DNA of 35,275 nt from Candidatus Gastranaerophilales bacterium (GTDB lineage Bacteria; Cyanobacteriota; Vampirovibrionia; Gastranaerophilales; Gastranaerophilaceae): NCBI GenBank assembly GCA_944324195.1, contig CALUVJ010000012.1:1-35275 (forward strand). Reading direction: 5' to 3'. A program made the translations under genes and the position numbers. How positions within the stretch are numbered: position 1 is the stretch's first letter; each line of letters opens with the position of its first letter. Below, piece by piece: positions 25,631 through 35,275 of this stretch. A model generated the notes under the pieces. The model ran no database searches. It worked only from the letters and a program-made list of their open reading frames with translations, and had not been told where the DNA came from.

Positions 25631-25644
25631 TAAAAATATAAAAT

Positions 25645-25673
25645 TTGTAACAAAATTTTTTTTGTGATAATAT
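25645..25673 (+). promoter_or_regulatory. Possible promoter of the repeat array and tRNA-Leu
   Basis: TTGTAA at 25645-25650, 17 bases, TAATAT at 25668-25673. It is followed by a small hairpin TGCGC-GGGAA-GCGCA at 25680-25694 and then the first 124-bp repeat. It is the best promoter-like site before the array. Confidence 0.4.
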
Positions 25674-25713
25674 AGATTGTGCGCGGGAAGCGCATTGAAA
25701 AATAAATATAGTT

Positions 25714-25837
25714 TTATGTCGATGTGGCAAGGACTCCGCACAAAACGATAAATAATCGTTTTGAGTGGACGGCAGGCGAATCGGGCTTAAGCCCCGTGAG
25801 CCGTATATAAGATAAATACCGAGTCCGCCACAAAGCA
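25714..25837 (+). repeat. Structured tandem repeat, copy 1
   Basis: A 124-base unit repeated at 144-base offset with one mismatch. Its RNA would fold strongly. A closing stem pairs TGTGGC (25723-25728) and GGACTC (25731-25736) with GAGTCC (25821-25826) and GCCACA (25827-25832). Inside are a nine-pair hairpin CAAAACGAT/ATCGTTTTG (25741-25763) and a second hairpin ACGGC/GCCGT (25769-25773, 25800-25804) enclosing the palindrome GGGCTTAAGCCC (25783-25794). It begins GTCGATGTGGC, the same eleven bases that begin the tRNA-Leu gene. It may be a structured RNA or a palindromic mobile repeat. Confidence 0.85.
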
Positions 25838-25857
25838 GCTGAAAACAGAATAACAAA

Positions 25858-25981
25858 TTATGTCGATGTGGCAAGGACTCCGCACAAAACGATAAATAAT
25901 CGTTTTGAGTGGATGGCAGGCGAATCGGGCTTAAGCCCCGTGAGCCGTATATAAGATAAATACCGAGTCCGCCACAAAGCA
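25858..25981 (+). repeat. Structured tandem repeat, copy 2
   Basis: Same unit as 25714-25837. The only difference is T at 25914 for C at 25770, inside the ACGGC/GCCGT stem, where it leaves a G-U pair in plus-strand RNA. The 20-22-base spacers after both copies are also similar (CTGAAAACAGAATAA versus TTGAAAATTGAATAA). The next period, at +145, is the tRNA-Leu gene. Confidence 0.85.
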
Positions 25982-26006
25982 ATTGAAAATTGAATAAAAC
26001 AAGTGA

Positions 26007-26088
26007 GTCGATGTGGCGGAATCGGTATACGCGCACGTTTGAGGGGCGTGTGGAGAGATCCTTGCGGGTTCAAGTCCCGCCATCGACA
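26007..26088 (+). tRNA. tRNA-Leu (anticodon GAG)
   Basis: Cloverleaf by hand: acceptor GTCGATG (26007-26013) with CATCGAC (26081-26087); anticodon stem CACGT/GCGTG around loop TTGAGGG, with anticodon GAG at 26041-26043; long variable arm with GGA/TCC, as required for a class II tRNA; T stem GCGGG/CCCGC around TTCAAGT; discriminator A at 26088. The CCA end is not encoded. A terminator follows four bases later. Confidence 0.95.
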
Positions 26089-26123: not shown

Positions 26124-26157
26124 AATATGCTTGATTGGTGAGGGATTTAATCAGTTT

Positions 26158-26281
26158 TTGCGGGTTCAGCGGGAGCGAGCTGAGGCTGGAGTGCTTTTGT
26201 TTGGAGTGATGAAATCACGAAAACAAAACACGGAATTGCCGTTAAACGCGAGCGACCAAGACAAGTCCCGCCATCGACAAT
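26158..26281 (+). other. Interrupted second copy of the tRNA-Leu 3' end (scar)
   Basis: TTGCGGGTTCA (26158-26168) equals tRNA positions 26062-26072. After about 95 other bases the tRNA sequence resumes, with CAAGTCCCGCCATCGACAAT (26262-26281) identical to 26071-26090. The T arm is thus present twice, the second time split at the T loop. The insert contains a hairpin (TTTTGTTT..AAACAAAA flanking GTGAT/ATCAC near 26195-26229). This resembles an attachment-site duplication or a small palindromic element that entered a duplicated tRNA end. No integrase is nearby. Confidence 0.6.
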
Positions 26282-26285
26282 AAAG

Positions 26286-33265: not shown

Positions 33266-34120
33266 TTATAGGTTAAACAAAATTTCATTTTCTAAATCTT
33301 GAATATTATAAACTGTATCTAAAACATCAAAAGTTTCTTCAAGATTGTTTTTAGCACTATTCCAGCCACAACCATCAGTAAACCAGATAAATGTCACCCC
33401 ATCTATTGTTGCAACTTCTTGTGCGAGCGTTTTATAACTTCTTGCTGTTTCGTTTAACTTTGAGCCTCCGCCAGCATAGAAATTAGTTTCAATTACATAA
33501 ACTTGTTTATCTGTTTTTATTACAAAATCAAAACGTTTTTCCATTTTACCTTGATTAGAAATTGCCGACAAATTTACATTCCATTTTTGCTCAATTTCAT
33601 GGATATACATTTCTTTAAAGTAATTTTGCCCCTTAACAAAACCTGCTTTTTGAATATAACTTTCAACAAGATTTTCCATTAAATGCCCGCCACGATTTTT
33701 ACGAGCATTAGAATCTAAGCCTGTTTCAACACCTGTTGCATAATCTACTAAATTATTTACAATATGGTTTTGTAGCAAATCAAAAAGTTTCGTTTTTCTC
33801 ATAAACATCTTGTATTCTTCAATAGAATAATTCATTTTCTTGAATGAAAAATTATATTCCCCATCCTTATCTATTGTATAAATTTCATTAGCCCTAACAG
33901 CTAAAAGCAAAGGAATGCATTTTAGAGTTTCAGGATATTTTTTTATAATATTTTCAAAATCTTGTTCAATATTTTTTGAACCAACTAAAGAGTTTAAAAT
34001 ATTTAACTCAACTTTTAAGTTATCTATATTTTTAGTAATTTTATCAAAATCTGCATAATAGCCATAATCTGCAATACAAGGTCTAAAAGTAGATAACCAT
34101 TCTTTAAAATTTCTAGTCAT
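33266..34120 (-). CDS. dpnB: Type II restriction endonuclease, DpnII/MboI family (GATC)
   Basis: A 284-residue endonuclease of the DpnII family, whose members cut unmethylated GATC. Family landmarks: the N-terminal KEWLSTFRPCIADYGYYADF, the segment NRGGHLMENLVESYIQ (143-156), and the catalytic region RFDFVIKTDKQVYVIETNFY (196-215) continuing GGGSKLNETARSYK. Asp198 and Glu211 fit the PD-(D/E)xK core. It overlaps the methylase gene by eight bases, so protector and toxin are translated together. Specificity for GATC is inferred from the family and from the Dam-like partner. Confidence 0.92.
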   Translation of the reverse strand: MTRNFKEWLSTFRPCIADYGYYADFDKITKNIDNLKVELNILNSLVGSKNIEQDFENIIKKYPETLKCIPLLLAVRANEIYTIDKDGEYNFSFKKMNYSIEEYKMFMRKTKLFDLLQNHIVNNLVDYATGVETGLDSNARKNRGGHLMENLVESYIQKAGFVKGQNYFKEMYIHEIEQKWNVNLSAISNQGKMEKRFDFVIKTDKQVYVIETNFYAGGGSKLNETARSYKTLAQEVATIDGVTFIWFTDGCGWNSAKNNLEETFDVLDTVYNIQDLENEILFNL

Positions 34121-34955
34121 AATTCCTCACTAAAACTTCTGTAATTTTACCTCTACCATTAGCATTAGCGTTTACTGCCCGAGAAGCAAAAACTTTTTTT
34201 ATTTCATAATTTGCATATAATTCATTTACTAATTTAGTATCAGAATTAGATAGCATAAACATTACACCTTTTGAATCTAATTCATCACAGACTTCTCTCA
34301 GCTTAAACTGCATATCTAAATCAAAACCATCCTTTGTATATGAAGTAAAACTAGAAGTCTCATTTAATGGAACATAAGGAGGGTCAAAATAGACAAAATC
34401 GCCTTTTTGGACTTTCTCTAAAATCGCTGAAAAATCTGTACATTTAATTTCTGTATCTTTAAGTAATTTTGAACAATTTATCAAATTATCTGCATCAACA
34501 ATTCTTGGATTTTTATAGTTTCCAAACGGGACATTAAATTGTCCTTGAGAATTTACTCTATACAATCCGTTAAAACAAGTCCTATTTAAGTATATAAAAC
34601 GACTTGCTTTTTCTATATTTGAAAGTGTTGAATATTTTTCAGTTCGATCTAAATTTCTTATTTCTAAAAAATATTCTTTTGATACTTTATGCTTATTCAG
34701 ATCTGAAATTAATTCATAAACATTATCACGAACAGTTAAATATAAATTTATCAACTCCTCGTTCATATCTGAAATGTAGGCATTTTGCGGTTGCAACTCA
34801 AAAAACAGAGCTCCTCCACCGATAAAAGGTTCAAAATATCTGTTGTATAGCTTTGGCATATTTTTGAGCAGTTCAAACATAAGCTGACGTTTCCCGCCAA
34901 CCCATTTAACAATCGGATATGTTTCATTTTTCAATTGTTCTAAAACTACTGCCAT
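34113..34955 (-). CDS. dpnM: DNA adenine methyltransferase, Dam/DpnM type (GATC)
   Basis: N6-adenine methyltransferase, alpha class, 280 residues. KWVGGKRQL (17-25) is the family N-terminus, PFIGGGALFFEL (43-54) is the SAM-binding motif I, and DPPY (191-194) is the catalytic motif IV. NRTCFNGLYRVN and FGNYKNP are typical of the Dam/DpnM branch. It protects host GATC sites from the endonuclease encoded next to it. It overlaps the DpnA-like gene by ten bases and the endonuclease gene by eight. Confidence 0.94.
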   Translation of the reverse strand: MAVVLEQLKNETYPIVKWVGGKRQLMFELLKNMPKLYNRYFEPFIGGGALFFELQPQNAYISDMNEELINLYLTVRDNVYELISDLNKHKVSKEYFLEIRNLDRTEKYSTLSNIEKASRFIYLNRTCFNGLYRVNSQGQFNVPFGNYKNPRIVDADNLINCSKLLKDTEIKCTDFSAILEKVQKGDFVYFDPPYVPLNETSSFTSYTKDGFDLDMQFKLREVCDELDSKGVMFMLSNSDTKLVNELYANYEIKKVFASRAVNANANGRGKITEVLVRNYD

Positions 34956-35275
34956 ACTTTTTCTTTCTTTGAAAATATTTGTTTAAATCTTTTAATTGAA
35001 AGGTCTAAGTATTCTTTTTCTAAATCAATTCCAATAAATTTTCTTCCCAACTCTAAAGCCATTATACCAGTTGTTGAGCTTCCTGTAAAAGGGTCTAGAA
35101 TTAAATCATCTTTGTTTGTTGAAGCTAAAATTATACGCCTTAACAATTCTAAAGGTTTTTGTGTTGGGTGTTTTCCAAATTCTTTTTCATAGCTTTTAGG
35201 AGTTCCTATTGCCCAAACTGAACGCATTTGTTTTTCTGGTTTTTTGATAAAATCTTCACTCCAATTACCATTTTT
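34946..35275 (-). CDS. dpnA: Second methyltransferase, DpnA-like (partial)
   Basis: C-terminal part of a beta-class N6-adenine methyltransferase; the frame stays open to the right window edge, so the N-terminus is missing. Visible are NWSEDFIKKPEKQMRSVWAI, then FGKHPTQKPLELLRRIILAS and DPFTGSSTTGIMALELGRKF (SAM-binding loop), all typical of the DpnA/M.DpnIIB branch. An internal Met at 35227 is not the true start. In Streptococcus pneumoniae DpnA methylates single-stranded GATC and protects incoming transforming DNA. Here it is upstream of the Dam-like gene, unlike the dpnM-dpnA-dpnB order I recall for pneumococcus. Confidence 0.88.
   Translation of the reverse strand, partial: KNGNWSEDFIKKPEKQMRSVWAIGTPKSYEKEFGKHPTQKPLELLRRIILASTNKDDLILDPFTGSSTTGIMALELGRKFIGIDLEKEYLDLSIKRFKQIFSKKEKVWQ

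Follow-up and report, generated by a model that had tools for sequence, protein, structure and literature searches.

The two tandem repeats that precede tRNA-Leu(GAG) in the window, the whole 35,275-nt stretch of DNA analysed here, are probably (at roughly 0.6) two units of a non-autonomous, hairpin-forming family of mobile DNA that prefers tRNA genes. Of the two identities offered by the original prediction, a small RNA or a palindromic mobile repeat, the latter is favoured by many dispersed copies, by empty orthologous sites, and by copies located antisense to tRNAs or away from them. The main feature had been overlooked: both ends of each unit are copied from the tRNA. Bacterial mobile DNA commonly lands in tRNA genes, as a rule at the 3′ end and by way of recombinases. 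Here, the genomes of an abundant gut lineage, Gastranaerophilales, contain small hairpin elements, up to tens of them, with ends that match the adjacent tRNA, in either orientation. Palindromic non-autonomous repeats are a known kind of element; target-copying ends are, to our knowledge, undescribed, and literature searches for tRNA-associated repeats of this sort, in this lineage or in bacteria generally, yielded nothing relevant.

Two repeat units upstream of tRNA-Leu(GAG)

The tandem repeats predicted before tRNA-Leu are real and consist of two 144-bp units, starting at 25718 and 25862 (Table 1). Repeat analysis of the window gave a period of 144 for the tandem copies (25696-25839 and 25840-25983), and BLAST aligned 124 nt at 99% identity between them (25858-25981), with 123 of 124 positions identical in the best stretch, as had been claimed. 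These were the only full copies detected by BLAST in the window's own draft genome. The pair lies 30 nt 5′ of the tRNA. The conserved core of the window units spans 79 nt and is composed of AAGGACTCC, hairpin 1, GGCAGGCGA, hairpin 2, and GAGCCGTATA.

Table 1. Features of the tRNA-Leu(GAG) array and its neighbours in the window
Feature	Positions	Strand	Basis
Promoter-like block TTTGTAAC...GTGATAATATAG	25644-25675	+	Conserved in occupied and empty tRNA-Leu loci, upstream regions compared
Unit 1 X, GTCGATGTGGC, exact tRNA-Leu nt 1-11	25718-25728	+	
Unit 1 conserved core, AAGGACTCC-hairpin-GGACGGCAGGCGA-hairpin-GAGCCGTATA	25729-25807	+	Model R1 match 25727-25807; alignment A1
Unit 1 arm ATACCGAGTCCGCCACA	25816-25832	+	16/17 complementary to tRNA-Leu 26012-26028, inverted repeat I8
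A+T-rich spacer, diverged tRNA-leader copy	25833-25861	+	
Unit 2 X, exact tRNA-Leu nt 1-11	25862-25872	+	
Unit 2 conserved core	25873-25951	+	Model R1 match 25871-25951
Unit 2 arm, complementary to tRNA-Leu 26012-26028	25960-25976	+	Inverted repeat I9
Spacer / tRNA leader	25977-26006	+	
Intact tRNA-Leu(GAG), target	26007-26088	+	ARAGORN; Rfam RF00005
Second, different dispersed hairpin element, antisense, 3′ of tRNA	26128-26281	-	Direct repeat D2
Endonuclease-like frame	33266-34120	-	By eye
Adenine methylase-like frame	34113-34955	-	By eye
Second methylase fragment	34946-35227	-	By eye

Strong folding was also borne out, one copy lying far below shuffled sequence in energy on both strands. Plus-strand RNA of one copy has a predicted energy of -47.6 kcal/mol (z -5.1; 0 of 200 shuffles equally good), and the minus strand of the same copy reaches -44.3 kcal/mol (z -4.9), so that folding alone cannot show which strand is used. 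The closing stem of 12 pairs is present in the window, as 6 + 6 pairs interrupted by a bulged AA, but the family does not conserve its inner half; in tRNA-Pro and tRNA-Lys units, the 3′ arm tracks the tRNA instead. The single difference between the copies (C25770/T25914), previously taken as a hint of plus-strand RNA, loses that meaning in alignment A1, where the base is absent from many family members, and in larger samples wobble pairs are too few to point to either strand (3 GU against 1 AC, both in small modules and in type-1 first hairpins), type-1 denoting units of the kind found in the window.

Unit ends are matched to their target

Each unit has the layout D-X-[core]-[arm]-D-X|Y, with X standing for tRNA nt 1-11, D for the leader of the tRNA, and Y for the tRNA bases that follow X; the arm repeats the X|Y junction in reverse complement. 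Each copy fetched from directly 5′ of a same-strand tRNA begins with the 5′ end of its own tRNA and carries an arm complementary to the next bases of that same tRNA. For example, the Lys unit ends in CCAACTGCGCC, complementary to GGCGCAGTTGG in its tRNA, and in genome G007 near-identical cores carry tRNA-matched ends at both Pro-GGG and Pro-CGG. Among sense type-1 units, the longest stretch of complementarity to the own tRNA reached at least 8 nt in 35/39 and at least 10 nt in 27/39, compared with 0.8% of control pairings with a tRNA for another amino acid that reached 8 nt. Breakpoints within the tRNA cluster at nt 11, with further ones near nt 7-8, 18-20, and 26 in a version built on a smaller hairpin module (see below), which follows the arm rule more weakly (33/81 at 8 nt or more; control 9%). 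The closing helix between X and arm was rejected as a specific feature, own pairing being found in 33/41 units and pairing with the X of other units in 64%; the specific complementarity is that of the arm to the tRNA.

The same end rule holds at sense tRNAs, at antisense tRNAs, and at one or more non-tRNA sites (antisense and non-tRNA examples being L041, L110, L163, and L100). At L100, which is not a tRNA, the element is flanked by a 43-bp perfect direct repeat, and the junction recurs as its reverse complement in the 16-nt arm. A direct repeat was sought at several other non-tRNA sites, and none was clear. Single-unit sites show direct repeats of 11-47 bp, as expected of a target-site duplication; this length is variable, which would be unusual for a MITE-like derivative, and some non-tRNA sites have no such repeat. 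The core ends AAGGACTCC and GAGCCGTATA do not form an inverted repeat with each other, and the outer ends follow the target.

Empty sites and position of the array

The tRNA-Leu(GAG) locus is syntenic among relatives, with the same dut neighbour (86-99% identical protein), and contains zero, one, or two type-1 units; empty orthologous loci are L169, L174, L175, L176, L178, and L182. Between near-identical genomes, no insertion event was seen. The promoter-like block was noted from its conservation, since it falls below the threshold of the consensus scan. Because this block is shared and the first X lies where the tRNA begins in the empty genomes, the array is placed inside the presumed transcribed leader and, judging from this position between block and tRNA, should be transcribed as a long pre-tRNA leader.

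Distribution of the family

A DNA search detected homologues in 57 of 144 relatives, those with the weakest matches having only the first hairpin in common, and a covariance model of the core matched 196 of 383 genomes of the order, with all of the matches listed belonging to the window's own family, Gastranaerophilaceae. This search, which the original prediction had proposed as the deciding one, returned many dispersed copies; covariation in the stems, which the original prediction treated as a sign of an RNA gene, was also seen, and this does not by itself separate an RNA from a DNA hairpin. Copies mostly stand in tandem 5′ of a variety of tRNAs (Leu, Pro, Lys, and others). Most of those fetched lie directly 5′ of a same-strand tRNA (Leu-GAG, Pro-TGG, Pro-CGG, Pro-GGG, or Lys-CTT), others are antisense to Phe (L041) or Arg (L077, L087, and L110) tRNAs, and further copies lie at sites other than tRNAs. 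At L024, L094, L087, and L102, a single tRNA is preceded by a series of type-1 units and small modules. Units in series have different breakpoints (nt 11 and nt 19 for Pro), suggesting that separate insertions accumulate at one gene.

Plasmid and phage collections contained no match to the units, and a phage or plasmid origin was rejected on this basis. A pattern scan of IMG/VR gave one short motif match; for the small module, 7 of 80 IMG/VR matches passed the stem filter, of which most had weak stems and none was close to a tRNA.

A smaller hairpin module shared by many arrays

Many arrays contain a shorter hairpin, ACTCTGCCGA-stem-GAGAGG, mostly 39-51 nt long, whose stems vary freely and stay complementary. 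It is found 5′ of Leu, Lys, Met, Ala, Val, Ile, Pro, and Thr tRNAs, and in antisense orientation at Arg, His, Glu, Gln, Phe, and Leu tRNAs. Contigs of GTDB species yielded at least 97 matches in at least 80 loci; among the matches listed, 81 had a stem, nearly all from Gastranaerophilales/Melainabacteria or gut bacteria, and 43 of these 81 had a tRNA within 500 nt. In a sample of the phylum, the module occurred in 105 of 244 genomes, namely 104 from the window's family and one from the same order, and in none of the other 136. Genomes carry as many as 86 copies, while a reversed-pattern control was nearly zero. Identical modules are found in two tRNA arrays (Lys and Met) of G033, as well as on many contigs of G189, G191, and G210, where the flanks partly differ and the modules lie partly within larger repeats. 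Modules are also nested in type-1 units or cores (L149 and L151).

Several modules lie in other settings. At L510, L511, L513, and L514, the module and a second hairpin are located inside reading frames that, by eye, seem to continue into a type IV pilin-like N-terminus; translation may run through the module here, or the module may interrupt the gene. At L515, by-eye inspection places the module at the break of an antisense partial duplication of an apparent 5S rRNA, the direct repeat there being some 100 nt long or longer. In the window's own genome, three loci (L223-L225, on contigs C68, C103, and C107) have modules away from tRNAs within a repeated leader-like sequence, GACGTATTAGACAGC-module-GAAACGCGCGACCCGCGGTTCAGCGGGGCGGAAGTGGCGGAGAACTGCTTT, for which no Rfam family was found at gathering score.

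A probable mobile hairpin family and its alternatives

The simplest route by which the units could have arisen can be proposed from their anatomy. Insertion would take place inside the tRNA gene after nt 11, and leader plus X would be duplicated over 11-47 bp together with one inverted copy of the target, possibly through polymerase strand-switching at a break, in a short direct-inverted-direct event. The tRNA would survive, since downstream of the insert its 5′ part is found a second time, and extra units could arise by recombination between the direct repeats. It is a tentative and rather doubtful further step to regard this as a previously unseen mode of DNA insertion, in which a gene-less hairpin duplicates its target and writes an inverted copy of it, so that the ends are tailored to each target and the tRNA is never broken. 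If insertion does make the matching arm, the mechanism is an unfamiliar one that is directly testable.

Several observations count against mobility. No mobilising gene was found. A reverse transcriptase is not supported as the mover, nor is a retroelement or group II intron derivation, as the presence of RVT_1 does not follow copy number and this domain is absent from G027, G048, G194, and G198, which are 98-99% complete and have many copies. A Y1/RAYT transposase is likewise unsupported, given its lack of a link to copy number and the rarity of Y1_Tnp genes near modules: several type-1 copies occur without Y1_Tnp in G193, G342, G425, G274, and G380, G033 has Y1_Tnp and no type-1 match, and only 2 clear modules lay near the 26 Y1_Tnp loci examined. 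No autonomous partner element for a MITE-like derivation was found. Furthermore, X remains exact while the leader copy D decays, so that next to the tRNA in the window the match is limited to the 11 nt of X; orthologous units are conserved to about the same degree as their flanks, or more strongly. The exactness of X and the retention of units suggest selection, which also weighs against a mobile repeat; retention of X and core while the spacers decay could be explained either by continued mobility or by function.

Function at the RNA level is an alternative, though an unlikely one: the units would be leader RNAs acting on the pre-tRNA, with the arm pairing to the tRNA 5′ half and X replacing the acceptor strand, so that the transcript would alternate between a free tRNA and an intron-like form with swapped strands, thereby controlling maturation by RNase P. 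The predicted minimum-energy fold of unit 2 with the tRNA is indeed strand-swapped, at -92.5 kcal/mol compared with -45.8 for the unit and -33.1 for the tRNA alone (sum -78.9), yet such a fold follows automatically from the way in which the ends were copied. In predicted folds of type-1 units, X is paired to the 3′ acceptor strand of the tRNA in 36/38 and the 5′ part of the tRNA is paired upstream in 36/38; the median gain is -11.7 kcal/mol, falling to -6.0, with 14/38 sequestered, once arm and spacer are shuffled. In units built on the small module, by contrast, strand-swapping is no greater than in shuffled controls. The stems covary, with double changes at 4/15 pairs and a covariation score above all 500 shuffles, and X and core are conserved where the spacer varies; against this, wobble pairs are far rarer in module stems (3/830 pairs) than in tRNA acceptor stems (19/403), unlike in an RNA selected only as RNA. 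The same units also occur antisense to tRNAs and at non-tRNA sites, and close relatives have orthologous tRNA-Leu genes with no unit. On the predicted folds, a role for the units in tRNA maturation is possible; a function confined to tRNAs was rejected as the sole explanation in view of the antisense and non-tRNA copies. A known RNA family was also discarded: apart from the tRNA, Rfam gave no match at gathering score, consistent with the earlier statement that no named family was known to have this fold. If insertion makes the matching arm, many tRNAs of these bacteria would also come from precursors containing mimics of their own 5′ half, which would bear on RNase P processing and on tRNA annotation.

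The units might instead have formed with no transposition, polymerase template switching at each tRNA gene making partial duplications and the cores spreading by gene conversion and descent. Adjacent direct, inverted, and direct copies of the target are the expected product of a strand switch, and stems that are perfect and almost free of wobble are consistent with repair through template switching, a process described in PMC8794818. Such an origin is nevertheless improbable, for a local process cannot supply the same module of 41-51 nt at many non-homologous places, identical at different loci. That the repeats are a chance palindrome or an assembly artefact of one metagenome-assembled genome hardly merits consideration: the draft consists of 115 contigs and matches in relatives are often at contig ends, but the same element with the same anatomy recurs in hundreds of independent assemblies.

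Relation to known repeats and leaders

As a mobile hairpin family, the units resemble REP/REPIN sequences, elements mobilised by RAYT (Y1) transposases, which are likewise short, non-autonomous, hairpin-forming, dispersed, present in high copy number, and often clustered (PMC3116915); a short dispersed palindrome in many copies, with up to 86 small modules per genome, is what was found here. According to PMC3116915, REPINs occur close to their RAYT gene. Unlike in the REPIN-RAYT system, Y1_Tnp genes in this lineage are mostly unflanked by modules and copy number does not follow them; unlike in a REPIN, stem sequences vary freely at constant structure, and the target tRNA is matched at both ends. 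Rickettsia palindromic elements (RPE) are palindromic insertions of 100-150 nt in one bacterial lineage, also found inside genes. The small modules within pilin-like reading frames are a point of likeness to them. RPE are not known to have a target-matched inverted arm or tRNA preference.

The tRNA fragments left by integrating elements also place a partial tRNA copy beside an intact tRNA (PMC9897764), whereas the part copied in this family comes from the 5′ end (or from the 3′ end, antisense), the insert is a gene-less sequence of ~100 nt, and an inverted copy is present. Tandem inversion duplications and template-switch mutations share the direct-inverted-direct arrangement, but the arrangement here recurs at many tRNAs and always with a shared hairpin core. 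T-box and other leader riboswitches are similar in being structured RNA with complementarity to tRNA in a presumably transcribed leader; in contrast, the units precede the tRNA gene itself, pair with the D-arm region, and have no T-box or other Rfam match.

A second element and other neighbours

The second hairpin element, with the core TCTTGGTCGCTCGCGTTTAACGGCAATTCCGTG...GCACTCCAGCCTCAGCTCGCTC, lies on the minus strand at 26128-26282, and the 3′ end of the tRNA is duplicated at 26262-26281. This element was found in 31 of 57 relatives, with up to 16 matches per genome, and at the fetched loci it is often antisense to Leu, Asn, or Asp tRNAs, or beside a Gly tRNA. Unrelated in sequence to the units, this second family, situated at the other end of the same tRNAs, may use the same route. 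Elsewhere in the window, three minus-strand reading frames (33266-35227) resemble, by eye, a restriction-modification set of the DpnII type.
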